Notes under the pieces: model-generated
What the model was told of the DNA's origin: nothing
The model's database searches: none
The model's input: the letters and a program-made list of their open reading frames with translations, nothing else
Program-made: the position numbers and the translations under genes
In this document: piece by piece, positions 29,579-37,355 of the stretch
Position numbering within the stretch: position 1 is the stretch's first letter
How the letters are laid out: each line of letters opens with the position of its first letter
Assembly (NCBI GenBank): GCA_029240655.1
Contig: JARDZW010000004.1
Coordinates: forward strand, 1 to 42,900
From: Chloroflexota bacterium
Lineage (GTDB): Bacteria > Chloroflexota > Limnocylindria > Limnocylindrales > CSP1-4
DNA: 42,900 bases
Reading direction: 5' to 3'

Positions 29579-29763
29579 CTGGTGCTGTGCCTCCCTCATT
29601 CGTATCCGACGCGCATCCGAAACGAATGCGATGACGGCATCCTAGCCCCCCAGACCGGCGTGGCAAGGGCAATTTTCGTTCTCGGTTCGACCCGACGCAC
29701 CGCGACATGACACTCCGGACGGCCCGAAATCCGTCAGTGGAGGCCCGGTGCAACGCGCGGCGC

Positions 29764-29769
29764 TACGAT
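29764..29769 (+). promoter_or_regulatory. -10 element TACGAT for leaderless uvrD2
   Basis: TACGAT ends six bases before the ATG at 29776. No ribosome binding site is visible, which fits a leaderless transcript. Confidence 0.5.
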
Positions 29770-29775
29770 CGGGCG

Positions 29776-31854
29776 ATGCTCACCATCGACGCGGACGCCC
29801 TGCTTGCCGATCTGGATCCCGCCCAGCGCGAGGCGGTCATCACGGTCCGTGGCCCGCTGTGCATCCTGGCCGGGGCCGGCACGGGCAAGACCCGCGTGAT
29901 CACGCGCCGGGTCGCGTATGCCCTGGCGACCGAGGCGGTCCGGCCGTCGGACGTCCTCGTCGTCACCTTCACGGATAAGGCCGCGACGGAGATGCGCGAT
30001 CGCCTGGCGGCGGCGGGACGCCGAGGCGTGTCGGCGTTCACGTTCCATGCGGCGGCGCTCCGTCAACTCCGGCATTTCTGGCCGCGTATCCACGACCGCG
30101 ACCTGCCGAGCGTCCTCTCGTCGAAGGCGTCGCTGCTGGCGCCCCTGGCGCGGTCGTTGCCCGGCGGCTACCGATACCTGGCCGTCCGGGATCTCGCGGC
30201 CGAGATCGAATGGGCGAAAGCGCGCCGGATCGCACCCGCGGGTTACGCCGATGGCGTCATCGGGCAGCGGCACGACGGCCCGCTGCCGCCGGACCTCATG
30301 GCACGGTTCTATCGGGACTACGAGACCGCGCGCGACCGGGCCGGGCTCATCGACTTCGAGGACATGCTGGCGATGACCGTGGAGCTGATCGAGGGCAACG
30401 AGGCCGTTGCGGCCGAGGTTCGGGCACGCTATCGATGGTTCTCTGTCGATGAATACCAGGACACGAACCCGCTCCAGCAGGCGCTCCTCGATGCCTGGCT
30501 CGGCGGGCGCGATGATCTCGCCGTCGTCGGCGACGAGGATCAGACGATCTACACGTTCACCGGAGCCACGAGCGACTATCTGACGGGCTTTTCTGCTCGA
30601 TATCCCGATGCCAGGATCGTTCGACTGGAGAGCAATTTCCGTTCGACGCCACAGGTGCTGGGCCTCGCCAATCGCGTGCTGGCCGCCGGGCGCGCGGCGG
30701 ACGACGAGCGCGCTGCGGGAACGGCCGCGCGACCGGAGAAGCGTCTCGTGCCGACACTCGATGGCGGGCCGTCCCCGCACATCGCGGGCTTCGACACGGA
30801 CGATGCGGAGCTCGCCGGGATCACGACGGCCATCCGGGCCCTCGCTCGGGACAACATCACGCACGGCGATATGGCGATCCTCGTCCGAACGAATGCCCAA
30901 TTGCCGGCGCTGGAAGCCGGCCTCGGCGCGGCAGGCATCCCGTTCCACGTCCGCGGGGAGCGATTCTTCGCACGCCCGGAGGTCCGTCGGGCATTGCGCG
31001 TGGCCGCGGCGCTGGACCGGCCACTGGACGCTCGCCGCGTCGCGGAGTCGTCCGAGGCTGTTCCCGACGCGCTCCCCGCCAGGCTGGCCGGGGCCTTCGA
31101 ACAGGAGCTCGGCGTCCACCGGGACACCGTGCCGGATGGCGATGCGGCGCGCGAACGGCATGCGGCTGTCGTGACGCTCCTGGAGCTCGCGGAAGCTCTC
31201 GCGGCCGCGGATCCGGGTACGGACGTGGCCGGCTTCCTTGCCGAGGTCGAGCGCCGAGCCGCGGCGGAATCGAGCGGGGCGATCAACGGCGTCGAGCTGC
31301 TGACCTACCACCGCGCCAAGGGACTCGAGTGGGAGGCCGTCTTCCTGCCCGCGCTCGAGGATGGCACGCTCCCGATCCGCCAGGCCAGCGACCCAGGCGA
31401 GCTCGCGGAGGAGCGGCGACTGCTGTACGTCGGGATCACGAGGGCACGCCGGCACCTCTGGCTGTCGTGGGCTCGTCGCCGTACGGCCTCGACCGGGCGC
31501 GAGGGTCGCCGCAGCCGTTCGCGCTTCCTCGACGGTCTCATCCCGGCACCGGTCCGGACGGTGAGGGTCGTACCGTCCGAGACACCCCAGCGCCTCGCGG
31601 CCGGTGACCGTTCACCGCTTTCCAACGCGCTCCGAGCCTGGCGGACGGCCCGTGCCCGCGCCGACCAGGTGGCGCCCTTCATCGTGTTCCATGACAGCAC
31701 GATCGAGGCGATCGCCGACCGCCGACCGGCCACGATGCCGGAGCTTCGACGCGTGCCGGGTGTCGGGCCGATGAAGCTCGATCGATACGGCGAGGAGATC
31801 ATCGCCATCGTGGCTCGCACGCTTGAGGCGACCCCGGACGATGGTCCACATTGA
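29776..31854 (+). CDS. uvrD2: UvrD2-type SF1A DNA helicase with HRDC domain
   Basis: A 692-residue 3'-5' helicase. Walker A is GAGTGKT (33-39); motif Ia is TFTDKAATEM; motif II is VDEYQDT, with D225-E226; motif III is VGDEDQTIYTFTGA; motif IV is LESNFRST; motif V is TYHRAKGLEWE; motif VI is LLYVGITRARRHLWLSW. The C-terminal ~75 residues (about 615-690) are an HRDC domain ending in VPGVGPMKLDRYGEEI. This layout matches mycobacterial UvrD2, but the four-cysteine zinc module that UvrD2 carries before HRDC is absent. Its last codon bases overlap the -35 of the SOS promoter that follows. Probable role: DNA repair or replication support. Confidence 0.92.
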   Translation: MLTIDADALLADLDPAQREAVITVRGPLCILAGAGTGKTRVITRRVAYALATEAVRPSDVLVVTFTDKAATEMRDRLAAAGRRGVSAFTFHAAALRQLRHFWPRIHDRDLPSVLSSKASLLAPLARSLPGGYRYLAVRDLAAEIEWAKARRIAPAGYADGVIGQRHDGPLPPDLMARFYRDYETARDRAGLIDFEDMLAMTVELIEGNEAVAAEVRARYRWFSVDEYQDTNPLQQALLDAWLGGRDDLAVVGDEDQTIYTFTGATSDYLTGFSARYPDARIVRLESNFRSTPQVLGLANRVLAAGRAADDERAAGTAARPEKRLVPTLDGGPSPHIAGFDTDDAELAGITTAIRALARDNITHGDMAILVRTNAQLPALEAGLGAAGIPFHVRGERFFARPEVRRALRVAAALDRPLDARRVAESSEAVPDALPARLAGAFEQELGVHRDTVPDGDAARERHAAVVTLLELAEALAAADPGTDVAGFLAEVERRAAAESSGAINGVELLTYHRAKGLEWEAVFLPALEDGTLPIRQASDPGELAEERRLLYVGITRARRHLWLSWARRRTASTGREGRRSRSRFLDGLIPAPVRTVRVVPSETPQRLAAGDRSPLSNALRAWRTARARADQVAPFIVFHDSTIEAIADRRPATMPELRRVPGVGPMKLDRYGEEIIAIVARTLEATPDDGPH

Positions 31855-31879
31855 CCGAACGCGCGTTCGAAGGTATAGT
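31851..31879 (+). promoter_or_regulatory. Promoter TTGACC-17-TATAGT with embedded LexA/SOS box
   Basis: The -35 is TTGACC (31851-31856) and the -10 is TATAGT (31874-31879), with exactly 17 bases between. A perfect palindrome CGAAC-GCGC-GTTCG (31856-31869) fills the spacer. It matches the Gram-positive LexA consensus CGAAC-N4-GTTCG. LexA binding there would block RNA polymerase. The expected transcript starts near 31886 and reads into the zinc-ribbon gene. Confidence 0.8.
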
Positions 31880-31885
31880 TCACAA

Positions 31886-32069
31886 GTCACCGATCCGCAG
31901 CGACGGCTCCGGTCGAGCGCCTCGAACAACGGACGCTCCCGCCCGCAGCGCGAATCACCAGACCGTTCCGGCCCCCACCTCGGGCTGTCCAGAGCGAAAC
32001 CGATCACCGGCCGCGGCCCAGGATCAAACCACCTGTGGCGCGCCAGAAAGCAATACGAGAACCAAACCC
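31886..32069 (+). other. Long 5' leader of the SOS transcript
   Basis: About 184 bases between the predicted transcription start and the ATG at 32070. I see no convincing ORF, no known riboswitch and no strong hairpin. It is less biased than the flanking genes, and a structured or small-RNA role is possible but unsupported. Confidence 0.35.
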
Positions 32070-32267
32070 ATGATGTCCCGTTCCACCACCACGACCTTTG
32101 CCGGTCGTTCCAGTTCCATGCGCCGAATGCGCCGCCGCGCGACCGCCGCCAACACCGGCTCACGCATCTTCTGCGGCACCAACGGGTGCCCCAGCTTCCT
32201 CGAGATCGATCCGACCTCAGGCGTCGCTACCTGCGCGATCTGCGGCTTCACGCGCCGCACCCACTGA
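32070..32267 (+). CDS. 65-residue zinc-ribbon protein, probably SOS-regulated
   Basis: The predicted product has two parts. Residues 1-32 are Ser/Thr- and Arg-rich (R-R-M-R-R-R at 18-23), positively charged and likely disordered. Residues 33-65 form a compact zinc ribbon with C35-G-T-N-G-C40 and C55-A-I-C58, which is CX4C then CX2C. An acidic strand with L-E-I-D-P-T-S-G-V-A-T lies between the knuckles. This is typical of small nucleic-acid- or protein-binding zinc ribbons. The start is one of two adjacent ATGs; no good ribosome binding site is visible. The LexA-box promoter upstream is the only promoter seen. I do not recognise the family. Confidence 0.6.
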   Translation: MMSRSTTTTFAGRSSSMRRMRRRATAANTGSRIFCGTNGCPSFLEIDPTSGVATCAICGFTRRTH

Positions 32268-32333
32268 CCTAGCCGACGTCGCACCGGCCGGGATGGCCGA
32301 CACGGCAGCTCGCCGAGGCGCCATCCTGCCGGC

Positions 32334-33698
32334 ATGACGTCCCTCCGCACGCTCGATCGCGGGCGTCTCGCGCGCCACATGGCCGACGAGACCGCGCGCT
32401 TCGTCGCCGAACATCCGCGCTCCCAGCAGCTGCACGAGCGCGCCAAGGCATCGCTCCTGGACGGCGTACCGATGAACTGGATGGTCCGCTGGGCGGGTCC
32501 GTTCCCCTTGTTCGTGGAGGAAGCCTCAGGTGCCCGGTTCACCTGTGTCGACGGCCACGAGTACGTCGATCTCTGCCTCGGCGACACCGGATCGATGGCC
32601 GGCCACGGCCCGGGCCCGACCATCGCCGCCGTCGAGCGCCAACTCCGCCGAGGCATCACGCACATGCTCCCGACCGAGGACGCGATCTGGGCCGGGGAGG
32701 AGCTCCAACGGCGCTTTGGCCTGCAGTCCTGGCAGTTCACGCTGTCGGCCACGGATGCGAACCGCTTCGCCATCCGCCTGGCCCGTCACATCAGCGGCCG
32801 CAGCAAGGTCCTGGTCCACGACCAGTGCTACCACGGCTCGGTAGATGAAACGTTCGCGGTTCTCGACAGCGATGGTCGCGTTGGTCCCAGGGAAGGCCTG
32901 ATCGGGCCACCGGTCGACGTCGCCGCGACCACCCGGGTCGTGGACTTCAACGACGTCGACGGCCTCGCTCGCGCGCTCGCCGACCGTGACGTCGCTGCGG
33001 TGCTGTTCGAGCCTGCCCTCACGAACATCGGCATCGTCCTGCCCGAGCCCGGCTATCACGACGCGGTCCGCGACCTGACCCGGCAGACCGACACGATCCT
33101 CATCATCGATGAGACCCATACCATCTGCGCCGGCCCTGCCGGCGCAACCGGTGCGTGGGGCCTCGAGCCCGACATGCTCGTGATCGGCAAGACGATCGGG
33201 GGTGGGATCCCGGCCGCGGCCTACGGCATGAGCCGCGAGATCGCCGACCGGGTCAGCGCGTCCATCCCGGAGAAGGACGCCGATGTCGGCGGGATCGGCG
33301 GCACGCTGGCGGGCTACGCGCTGTCCCTCGCCGCGGTCCGGGCGACCCTTGGCGAGGTCCTCACCGACGCGGCGTTCGAGCGGATGCTGCAACTTGGCGA
33401 ACGTTGGGCGGACGGGGGCGACGGCGTGATCCGCTCGCACGATGTGCCGTGGCACGTGACCCGACTCGGTGCCCGTGCGGAATACCACTTCATGCCGGAG
33501 CCGCCGCGCACCGGCGCCGAGCAGGCCGCCAACGCCGATCCGGAGCTCGAGCGCTTCCTGCACCTCTGGGCGATGAACCGTCGCATCCTCATGACGCCGT
33601 TTCACAACATGGCCCTGATGTCGCCGGTCACGGTCGAGGCCGACGTGGATCGCCACAGCGAGGTGTTCGAGGCCGCGGTCGTCGCGCTGTTCGACTGA
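32334..33698 (+). CDS. Class III aminotransferase (glutamate-1-semialdehyde-type)
   Basis: A PLP enzyme of 454 residues, about the normal length. The Schiff-base lysine is K286 in VIGKTIGGG, and the cofactor aspartate lies in IIIDETHT. The N-terminal part has the G-H-E-Y-V-D-L and G-S-M-A-G-H-G-P segments of the class III fold. It resembles glutamate-1-semialdehyde aminomutase and beta-amino-acid or omega transaminases; the substrate cannot be settled. ATG 32334 lies 67 bases after the zinc-ribbon gene; CATCCT ends six bases upstream. The gene is probably transcribed alone or by readthrough from the SOS promoter. Confidence 0.88.
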   Translation: MTSLRTLDRGRLARHMADETARFVAEHPRSQQLHERAKASLLDGVPMNWMVRWAGPFPLFVEEASGARFTCVDGHEYVDLCLGDTGSMAGHGPGPTIAAVERQLRRGITHMLPTEDAIWAGEELQRRFGLQSWQFTLSATDANRFAIRLARHISGRSKVLVHDQCYHGSVDETFAVLDSDGRVGPREGLIGPPVDVAATTRVVDFNDVDGLARALADRDVAAVLFEPALTNIGIVLPEPGYHDAVRDLTRQTDTILIIDETHTICAGPAGATGAWGLEPDMLVIGKTIGGGIPAAAYGMSREIADRVSASIPEKDADVGGIGGTLAGYALSLAAVRATLGEVLTDAAFERMLQLGERWADGGDGVIRSHDVPWHVTRLGARAEYHFMPEPPRTGAEQAANADPELERFLHLWAMNRRILMTPFHNMALMSPVTVEADVDRHSEVFEAAVVALFD

Positions 33699-33764
33699 CG
33701 CTCGCAGGGACGGCCTGTCACCCGCAGCCCACCTCGTGACAGGCAAGCTGACGCTGCCCCCGAC

Positions 33765-33770
33765 TATCGT
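33765..33770 (+). promoter_or_regulatory. -10 element TATCGT for leaderless nuclease-helicase
   Basis: TATCGT ends six bases before the GTG start at 33777, so the mRNA would begin at the start codon. Confidence 0.55.
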
Positions 33771-33776
33771 TGACGC

Positions 33777-36700
33777 GTGCAGCTGATCGATGGGCGACCC
33801 GTCTTCGCCGCGACGGACCTCGTTGCATACCTGGCCTGCGAGCATCTCACCCAACTCGAACGAGCCGCGCTGGCGGGCCTCGTCAAGCGGCCGATGCGCG
33901 AGGACCCCGAGCTCGACATCATCCGCAAGCGCGGCTTCCAGCACGAGAAGCGCTACCTGGCCGACCTACAGGCGGCCGGGCGCTCATCGGTCGAGATCGC
34001 GCTGGACGGCTCGATCGAGGATCGCGGCGACCAATTGCGCGCGGCCGCGGCGGAGACGATCGCGGCGATGGCCTCCGGGGCCGACGTCATCTACCAGGCA
34101 ACGTTCTTCGATGAGACGTGGCGCGGCCACGCCGACTTTCTGTTGCGGGTCGACGATCCGGGGCGGCCGTCGGTCTGGGGCCCGTATCACTACGAGGTCG
34201 CCGACACGAAGCTCGCCCGCCACGTCAAGGCGAGCGCGGTCCTGCAGATCTGTTCATACATCGACCAGCTGGAGCGCATCCAGGGCGTCCGCCCGGAGTG
34301 GCTGCATGTCGCGCTGGGCGGCAGCGCCCGGGCCGTGGAGCGGCTGCGCGTCGACGACTACATGGCGTACTACCGGAGCGCCCGCGACCGATTCCTGGCA
34401 ACGATGGCGGACGAGGTGCCCGCCACGTATCCGCCGGGAGCCACGTATCCGGAGCCGGTCGAGCACTGCGATGTCTGTCGCTGGGCCGCCGAATGCGTCG
34501 AACGACGGCGTGACGACGACCACCTGAGCCTCGTCGCGGGCATCAGCGGCCGGCAGCGCCAGGCACTGACCGGGCGCGACATCGTTACGCTCGAAGCTCT
34601 CGGCGATCTGCCACTGCCGATGTCCCCACGGCTCGAGGGCGTCGGCGAGGGGGCCCTTATCCGCGTTCGAGAACAGGCGCGTATCCAGCTGGAGGGGCGA
34701 CGACACGACGATCATCGCTACGAGCTCTTTCTGCCTGATGCCGGGCAGTCGATCGATCCGGAGCGCGGGCTCGCGACCCTTCCCGAACCTTCGGCTGGCG
34801 ATCTATTCCTTGACCTCGAAGGCGATCCGTATGCCTTCGACGATGGGCTCGACTACCTGTTCGGCATCCTGGAGACCGACGGCACCTTCCATGCATTCTG
34901 GTCGAAGGACGACCGAGGCGAGTTCAGCCCAGCCGGCGAACAGCGCGCCTTCGAGCAGGTGATCGACTTCATCGCGGAGCGCCTGCGAGCCGATCCGGAT
35001 CTGCACGTCTATCACTACGCCGCATACGAGCCGACTGCGCTCAAGCGGCTCATGGGCCGGTACGGCACGCGCGAGGAGGAAGTCGACGACCTCCTCCGCC
35101 GCGGTGTCCTGGTCGACCTGCTCCGCGCGGTCCGGCAGTCACTGCGTGCCTCGGTGGAGAGCTACTCGATCAAGAAGATGGAGGTCTTCTACGGATTCAC
35201 TCGCGAGATCGACCTGCGCGACGCCGGTTCGAGCATCGTCGCCTTCGAGCAGTGGCTGGAGCTCGGCGAGGGCGAGCGCCCGGCTGCCGACCACCTGGAC
35301 CAGATCGAGAAGTACAACCGCGACGACGTCGTCAGCACCCGGCGACTGCGCGACTGGCTCGAGGAGCGGCGGCTAGAGCTCGCCGAGTCGGCTGGCCTTC
35401 CCGTACCCCGCCCGATGGCTCGCGAGAACCCAGTGCCTGCCGAGCTGACCGAGGCACAGGCCCGGACGCAGGCGCTCGTTGAGCGGCTTGCCGACCCTGC
35501 CATCGCCGCCGTCGACCCTGCCGACCGCGATCCCGCGGATCACGCTCGCTGGCTTCTCGGGCAGCTGCTCGGCTGGCATCGCCGCGAGGACAAGTCCATG
35601 TGGTGGGAGTTCCACCGCCTCATGGATCTGACTCCGGAGCAGCTTGTCGACGAGGACGAGCCTATCGGGATGCTCGTCCCGGACGGGCCTGTGTCGGAGA
35701 TCAAGAACGGCAAGCAAGTCTGGCGATACCGCTTCCCGGACCAGGAACAGGATGTCGGGCGCCGCGCGTTCGAGCCTCGTCGCAAGCAGGAGGCACCGGA
35801 CGCCAGCCCGTTCGACTGGGGCGTCGGCGATTTCGTCGCCGTGAATCAGACGGAGCTGACGGTCGACATCCGGCGCTCGATCGCAGATCCGCATCCGGCA
35901 GCGGTCGTCCCCTTGCCCTGGGTCCCGACGCCGGAGCACAAGGCCCGGCTGTTCGAGATCGGGGAATGGGTCGCCGACCACGGCATCGACGGCGACGGGC
36001 CGCACCGGGCGGCGCGCGATCTCCTGATCGGTCGTCCGCCCCGCGCGGGACAGGCGCCAGGCGAGTCCCTTTGCCGCCCGAACGAAACGGACCTCGCCGC
36101 CGCGCGACGGCTCGTCCTCGAGCTCGATGACACGGTCCTGCCGATCCAGGGCCCGCCAGGATCGGGGAAGACCTATTCCGGCGCCAGGATGATCTGTGAG
36201 CTGTTGCGTGCCGGCAAGAAGGTCGGCATCACCAGCACGAGCCACAAAGTCATCGGCAATCTGCTTCAGGCCGTGCTCAAAGCCTCCGCACCCGAGTTCG
36301 AAGACGTCGAGGTCCGGCCTATCCAGCGCGGGGATGCGGACCAGCTTCTTGACGACGAGCGCGTCATGCGGGGCGTCAACCCACAGGCGGTCCGCGAGCA
36401 CCTCGACGATGGACGCGCCAACCTGGCCGCCGGCACGTCCTGGCTTTGGGCCTCACCGAAGATGATCGGAGCCGTGGACGTGCTGTTCGTGGACGAGGCC
36501 GGCCAGATCTCCCTGGCGAACGTCATCGCGACTTCGACCGCGACGCGCAGCATCGTGCTGCTCGGCGACCCGCAGCAGCTCGATCAGCCGATGCGGGGTG
36601 CCCATCCGCCCGGAGCGGACCGGTCGGCGCTCGCCCACGTGCTCGGCGGCGCGGCCACGATCGGGGCGGATCGAGGGCTGTTCCTCGAGACGACGTGGCG

Positions 36701-37355
36701 GTTGCATCCTGCCCTGTGCGACTTCACCTCGGAGGTCTTCTACGACGACCGCCTCGAGCCCCAACCCCATCTCGCCGCCCAGCGCCTCATCATCCAGATG
36801 GAACTGGTCGATGGAGTAGGCCCACGCCTCGTGCAGGTGGCTGCCAGTGGTGCGGACAACGAATCGCCGGTAGAGGCCGGTGCGATCGCCGCGCTCGCGA
36901 CGACGCTCGTCAAGGACGGGTCATGGACCGATGCGGAGCGCGTCACGAAGCATCTGACCTGGGAGGACGTGCTCATCGTCGCGCCGTTCAACGCTCAGGT
37001 CGGCGCGATCAAACGGCTCCTGCCGCCGGAGGCTCGGGTGGGAACCGTGGACAAGTTCCAGGGGCAGGAGGCGCCGATCAGCCTCTATTCGATGACGACC
37101 TCGAGCCCCGAGCTGGCGCCTCGGGGGATGGACTTCCTCTATAGCCGCAACCGCATGAACGTGGCGACATCGAGAGCGCAGTGCGTGGCGGTCGTCGTCG
37201 CGTCCCCCGATCTGCTTCGGGTCCGAGCGCGTACGCCGGAGCAGATGCGTCTCGCGAATGCGTTCTGCCGCTTCGCGGAGCTTGCGTCGAGCCCGCCTGA
37301 TGGGCCCCCGGCGCCCCCGCCGAGGCTGGAACTCCTGACGCTCGGCCTCGTCTGA
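33777..37355 (+). CDS. TM0106-type Fe-S RecB nuclease / RNase-H-fold exonuclease / SF1B helicase
   Basis: A 1192-residue multi-domain DNA enzyme. Residues ~1-245 are a RecB-like PD-(D/E)XK nuclease with D120 (GHAD), D143 and K145 (ADTK), and Q157-x3-Y161. Cysteines C21, C231, C234 and C240 give the C-Xn-CX2CX5C pattern of the Fe-S clusters of AddB and Cas4. Residues ~340-530 are an RNase H-fold exonuclease: D346-x-E348 and Y513-x3-D517. Residues ~770-1175 are an SF1B (Upf1/Dna2-like) helicase with GPPGSGKT (792-799), DEAGQ at 906, GDPQQL, and C-terminal VDKFQGQE and NVATSRAQ. It belongs to the TM0106 family of RecB-like nucleases. GTG start; it follows the aminotransferase by 78 bases. Likely role: DNA repair, recombination or foreign-DNA processing. 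Confidence 0.9.
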   Translation: MQLIDGRPVFAATDLVAYLACEHLTQLERAALAGLVKRPMREDPELDIIRKRGFQHEKRYLADLQAAGRSSVEIALDGSIEDRGDQLRAAAAETIAAMASGADVIYQATFFDETWRGHADFLLRVDDPGRPSVWGPYHYEVADTKLARHVKASAVLQICSYIDQLERIQGVRPEWLHVALGGSARAVERLRVDDYMAYYRSARDRFLATMADEVPATYPPGATYPEPVEHCDVCRWAAECVERRRDDDHLSLVAGISGRQRQALTGRDIVTLEALGDLPLPMSPRLEGVGEGALIRVREQARIQLEGRRHDDHRYELFLPDAGQSIDPERGLATLPEPSAGDLFLDLEGDPYAFDDGLDYLFGILETDGTFHAFWSKDDRGEFSPAGEQRAFEQVIDFIAERLRADPDLHVYHYAAYEPTALKRLMGRYGTREEEVDDLLRRGVLVDLLRAVRQSLRASVESYSIKKMEVFYGFTREIDLRDAGSSIVAFEQWLELGEGERPAADHLDQIEKYNRDDVVSTRRLRDWLEERRLELAESAGLPVPRPMARENPVPAELTEAQARTQALVERLADPAIAAVDPADRDPADHARWLLGQLLGWHRREDKSMWWEFHRLMDLTPEQLVDEDEPIGMLVPDGPVSEIKNGKQVWRYRFPDQEQDVGRRAFEPRRKQEAPDASPFDWGVGDFVAVNQTELTVDIRRSIADPHPAAVVPLPWVPTPEHKARLFEIGEWVADHGIDGDGPHRAARDLLIGRPPRAGQAPGESLCRPNETDLAAARRLVLELDDTVLPIQGPPGSGKTYSGARMICELLRAGKKVGITSTSHKVIGNLLQAVLKASAPEFEDVEVRPIQRGDADQLLDDERVMRGVNPQAVREHLDDGRANLAAGTSWLWASPKMIGAVDVLFVDEAGQISLANVIATSTATRSIVLLGDPQQLDQPMRGAHPPGADRSALAHVLGGAATIGADRGLFLETTWRLHPALCDFTSEVFYDDRLEPQPHLAAQRLIIQMELVDGVGPRLVQVAASGADNESPVEAGAIAALATTLVKDGSWTDAERVTKHLTWEDVLIVAPFNAQVGAIKRLLPPEARVGTVDKFQGQEAPISLYSMTTSSPELAPRGMDFLYSRNRMNVATSRAQCVAVVVASPDLLRVRARTPEQMRLANAFCRFAELASSPPDGPPAPPPRLELLTLGLV

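Follow-up and report, generated by a model that had tools for sequence, protein, structure and literature searches.

A predicted LexA operator in the promoter of an orphan zinc-ribbon gene with a candidate leader RNA in Limnocylindrales

Which gene, if any, is served by a perfect LexA-type palindrome that lies between the -35 and -10 elements of a promoter, at the very end of a helicase gene and pointing towards a tiny zinc-ribbon gene? This question is raised by a stretch of 42,900 nucleotides from a Chloroflexota bacterium, hereafter the window. From comparison of the window with its host genome and relatives, we consider it highly probable that the palindrome would act as a LexA operator within the promoter of the zinc-ribbon gene, with SOS control being lineage-specific and the gene having its basic role elsewhere.

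The probable operator, its promoter and the host LexA

Positions 31851–31879 read TTGACC GAACGCGCGTTCGAAGG TATAGT, with a 17-nt spacer, and the CGAAC-GCGC-GTTCG palindrome shares the last base of the -35 hexamer, so that operator and promoter overlap. Both the sequence and a promoter scan confirmed the earlier note's description of a perfect LexA-type palindrome inside TTGACC-17-TATAGT. The promoter is the only sigma70-like one in 31700–33900 (10/12 matches, compared with 0.1 expected in shuffles), and the window contains no perfect CGAACN4GTTCG other than the palindrome at 31856–31869. As had also been claimed, the site lies at the end of a UvrD2-type helicase gene, which ends at 31854, meaning that the promoter begins over the helicase stop codon; the promoter is indeed aimed at a small uncharacterised zinc-ribbon gene, which is real and starts with the ATG at 32070. 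A long leader had been missed: transcription is inferred to start ~185 nt ahead of this ATG (Table 1).

Table 1. Features of the locus, with window coordinates and the evidence for each.
Feature	Position	Strand	Evidence
UvrD2-type helicase (UvrD/REP + C-terminal HRDC), upstream neighbour, outside the unit	29707..31854	+	ORF, domain matches, neighbourhood comparison
-35 hexamer TTGACC	31851..31856	+	sequence; promoter scan 10/12
LexA operator (SOS box, predicted) CGAACGCGCGTTCG	31856..31869	.	perfect palindrome; same slot at 30/30 lexA loci; kept in G004
-10 hexamer TATAGT	31874..31879	+	sequence; promoter scan
5' leader of zinc-ribbon mRNA	31886..32069	+	start inferred ~7 nt after -10; conserved G000/G004
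Hairpin H1 region, GGTCGAGC (31911–31918) ... CGCTCCCG (31934–31941)	31895..31956	+	compensatory changes in 25 sequences; model R1
Hairpin H2, CGTTCCGGCCC...GGGCTGTCCAGAGCG	31964..31996	+	compensatory changes, inner helix, 20 sequences
65-aa orphan zinc-ribbon protein (CxTNGC...CxxCG), basic N-terminus RRMRRR	32070..32267	+	orthologues, conserved start, invariant cysteines
Class-III aminotransferase (NCBIfam NF005453), conserved downstream neighbour, possibly co-transcribed	32334..33698	+	domain match, neighbourhood comparison
TM0106-family RecB-like nuclease joined to SF1 helicase, third co-directional gene	33777..37355	+	domain match, neighbourhood comparison

The host is a MAG of Candidatus Limnocylindrales, Chloroflexota (G000; 2.7 Mb, 71.5% complete), whose incompleteness was counted against the LexA-operator explanation. 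The earlier note had asked whether the organism carries LexA and further CGAAC-N4-GTTCG sites, and both were found. A single LexA match is present in the MAG, a canonical LexA with an HTH, whose translation contains GEIAAGGP, GDSM and VTLKRF; from general knowledge of LexA, we take these to hold the Ala-Gly cleavage site and the serine and lysine of catalytic type. The lexA gene has its own box, and every one of the 30 lexA loci fetched (that of the MAG and those of 29 relatives) has a GAACN4GTTC core between TTGACA and the -10, the same layout as at the zinc-ribbon promoter (this count includes locus L109, where the box position fits and the printed flank is empty). When scored with a PWM, the zinc-ribbon box reached 20.2, compared with 22.5 for the lexA site. 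Genome-wide, 18 perfect boxes were detected versus 3 for the reversed control pattern, and boxes precede lexA, uvrA, uvrB, a gene for an HRQ1/MrfA-like helicase and a small ORF beside dinB; no clear box was seen upstream of recA, where ~200 nt were available. Several other perfect boxes fall within coding sequence and look like chance matches. On these comparisons, the box in the window is very probably a LexA operator.

Two of these loci in the MAG deserve separate mention. The perfect LexA box at L002:1501–1538 ends 23 nt before the ATG of the HRQ1/MrfA-like DEAD helicase, which, judged by this arrangement, is likely an additional SOS gene of the host. Beside dinB, tandem LexA cores GAACATCTGTTC and GAACAGGTGTTC are found (L007:1450–1520), one of them inside a TTGACAT promoter aimed at an unannotated 90-aa ORF next to dinB.

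The box among orthologues and its probable target

Zinc-ribbon orthologues occur in 71 of the 107 family genomes, usually as a single copy. In the congener G004, the promoter reads TTGACG-17-GATAGT with CGAACACCCGTTCG, the N4 being changed, and the core lies 217 nt upstream of the start codon, compared with 213 nt in the window. Because the preceding gene is a different one in G004, yet box and promoter are retained, the zinc-ribbon gene, rather than the helicase, appears to be the target.

A perfect GAACN4GTTC core is present at 8 of 71 unique orthologues, each time between -35 and -10, where shuffles give a chance expectation of 0.56 anywhere in 450 nt. The box-bearing genomes belong to three genera: g1 (G000 and G004), g2 (G047, G082, G083 and G087) and g15 (G039 and G124); two further orthologues (L074 and L182) have one-mismatch cores. 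A recognisable TTGAC promoter was found at 55 orthologues, and the remaining 45 of these, congener G002 among them, have no box, so conservation of the box in every orthologue was rejected. The earlier note had held that loss of the palindrome from orthologous regions keeping the promoter would speak against its proposal, and here the outcome was divided: the box is retained in the same slot across three genera, but is absent from most other orthologues with the promoter. SOS control therefore looks lineage-specific, and since in most relatives a promoter of this kind stands without a box, the core role of the gene probably lies outside DNA damage. In a tree of leader and gene, the box label takes 6 changes, at least 4 of them forced by well-supported branches, suggesting that SOS control was gained or lost several times.

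Five of the box-less promoters (L053, L061, L079, L187 and L221) have a left half-site, GAAC, directly after TTGACAG or TTGACA; these half-sites may be what is left of an operator since lost, or the beginnings of a new one.

If the box is a LexA operator, the important target might instead be the downstream aminotransferase or RecB-like nuclease/helicase, with the zinc-ribbon gene as a passenger. The three genes all lie on the + strand, separated by 66 and 78 nt, and a terminator-like site was looked for in 31700–33900 and none was found; moreover, the class-III aminotransferase is the commonest neighbour, directly downstream and co-directional at 33/70 loci, including 7 of the 8 box-bearing ones, and the RecB-like nuclease gene is downstream in 6 other loci. 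However, promoter and leader accompany the zinc-ribbon gene to loci without these neighbours, and the box-bearing G004 has neither gene in the 737 nt available downstream, and we judge a downstream target to be unlikely. As a separate observation, the helicase part of the TM0106-type RecB-like nuclease/SF1 helicase is similar to helicases from candidate defence systems.

That the palindrome arose by chance in a GC-rich genome, with LexA having no action at this site, would agree with the many perfect genome boxes within coding sequence and with the 3 control matches arising by chance, but the box coincides with the sole nearby promoter, in the exact slot used at lexA; G004 retains it with a different N4, and two other genera carry it at the same position. 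We therefore regard coincidence as very improbable. Control of the UvrD2 helicase, or its coupling with the small gene, would suit the overlap of the box region with the helicase stop codon and the presence of the helicase near the zinc-ribbon gene in G002 and G030 too, but the promoter sits at the helicase 3' end and is directed away from it, and its retention in G004 behind another gene largely refutes this explanation, leaving it barely credible. Within the fetched flanks, UvrD2 lies upstream of the zinc-ribbon gene at two loci only, and the neighbourhood comparison across loci led us to reject the linkage, and with it the functional pairing with a repair helicase that had been suggested.

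The leader RNA and the zinc-ribbon protein

The leaders of the host and G004 have long blocks in common and differ by indels that are not multiples of three, which indicates that the leader is probably non-coding. A 138-aa ORF from TTG 31851 was rejected as a real gene, because the same indels break its frame and orthologues start at an ATG equivalent to 32070.

Comparison with relatives revealed two hairpins in the leader. H1 follows the pattern GC-A-GG-UCN-GAGC-loop-GCUC-CC-GC, with 89.7% of cells paired in 25 sequences and a covariation of 0.192; shuffles gave 0.057, and slid structures no more than 0.070. H2 follows CCGCUC-inner helix-GAGCGG, with 91.9% paired and a covariation of 0.251, where shuffles gave 0.122 and slid structures did not exceed 0.101; its pair-type count was no higher than in shuffles. 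Since the hairpin sequences were chosen by motif, the invariant core helices say little, and support comes from the variable helices. Compensatory changes are seen in the relatives, whereas the window's own H1 copy diverges. When the window leader was folded on its own by MFE, it did not outperform shuffled sequences (z -0.16); the evidence for a structure is therefore the covariation among relatives.

R1, a covariance model for H1, hit one place per genome in 21/81 genomes, 20 of the 21 being family genomes; in 19 of those 20 the zinc-ribbon gene follows, and in the twentieth (G041) the place ends at a contig edge, with the zinc-ribbon gene near the edge of another contig. The diverged H1 of the host was not detected by R1 at E 0.01, and canonical H1 is absent from genus g2, the home of four box-bearing members. 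The remaining R1 hit is weak (E 0.009) and lies in G077, from another family of the class. No Rfam family matches the leader, which we propose as a candidate new cis-regulatory RNA.

In a GTDB r220 scan, 63/63 zinc-ribbon loci were titled Chloroflexota. The start codon is conserved across orthologues, which share a basic RRxRRR stretch, and all four cysteines are invariant in 37 aligned sequences, arranged in two pairs (C-x-T-N-G-C and C-x-x-C) as expected of zinc ligands. The protein had no match above the curated cut-off in Pfam or NCBIfam, none at E 0.001 among PDB sequences and no clear homologue in PADLOC; Pfam IBR, falling below the gathering score, was rejected. An AlphaFold model, moderately confident at pLDDT 70, consists of an N-terminal helix and three short strands, and showed no match to PDB folds at E <= 0.001. 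A basic zinc ribbon behind a covarying leader points to a product that binds nucleic acid and is controlled through the leader: most likely, the protein would bind nucleic acid or the surface of the ribosome or RNA polymerase, with the leader regulating its synthesis.

Proposed regulation and comparison with known systems

The operator, the promoter, a LexA with cleavage and catalytic residues, part of its regulon and a conserved gene can all be read directly from the DNA, and the leader hairpins from comparison with relatives; LexA binding, induction, read-through and a role for the leader we infer. LexA at 31856–31869 would cover the region between -35 and -10, blocking RNA polymerase. Upon DNA damage, RecA filaments would trigger self-cleavage of LexA and the promoter would open. 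The resulting mRNA would comprise the ~185-nt structured leader and the zinc-ribbon ORF, probably with the co-directional aminotransferase too, and may extend into the RecB-like nuclease gene as well. Far more tentatively, and in our view improbably, the orphan protein might bind its own covarying leader, in autogenous control, and act on the ribosome or RNA polymerase, several lineages having separately placed it under LexA. If true, this would be an undescribed order-restricted regulatory unit in which DNA damage tunes transcription or translation through the zinc-ribbon protein.

These data document LexA boxes and a partial regulon for an uncultured Chloroflexota order of soil and groundwater, and add an orphan zinc-ribbon gene to predicted SOS control. 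They also provide a clear case of regulatory turnover, in which an operator repeatedly appeared or vanished in one promoter slot while promoter and gene stayed: within Limnocylindrales the switch occurs in some lineages only, the gene is retained by the majority, and a folded RNA leader precedes it in many. The leader itself, not described before, is a candidate regulatory element whose structure can be tested.

Among titles and abstracts, our literature search returned nothing directly relevant on LexA in Chloroflexota, and, within that limited search, we know of no described SOS regulon that contains an orphan zinc-ribbon gene preceded by a structured leader. Bacillus and mycobacteria likewise have LexA regulons of the CGAAC-N4-GTTCG type; the one described here belongs to the order Limnocylindrales and includes such a gene. 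Short and basic, with two CxxC-like knuckles, the protein is reminiscent of bL32, archaeal eL34 and RNA polymerase small subunits, a similarity to small zinc ribbons that comes with very weak profile scores. Ribosomal-protein leaders are autogenous mRNA leaders of small basic proteins, and in the candidate zinc-ribbon leader covarying hairpins similarly come immediately before the gene of a small basic protein, at essentially one gene per genome; this leader, however, matches no Rfam family. The LexA motif of Streptomyces venezuelae is tCGAAC-N4-GNNCGa, and that regulon has the same operator class, in-promoter operators and control of lexA and uvr genes (PMC9380542). The operator is of a known kind, while its host, target and lineage pattern are new, and the orphan protein with its leader is the more interesting part.
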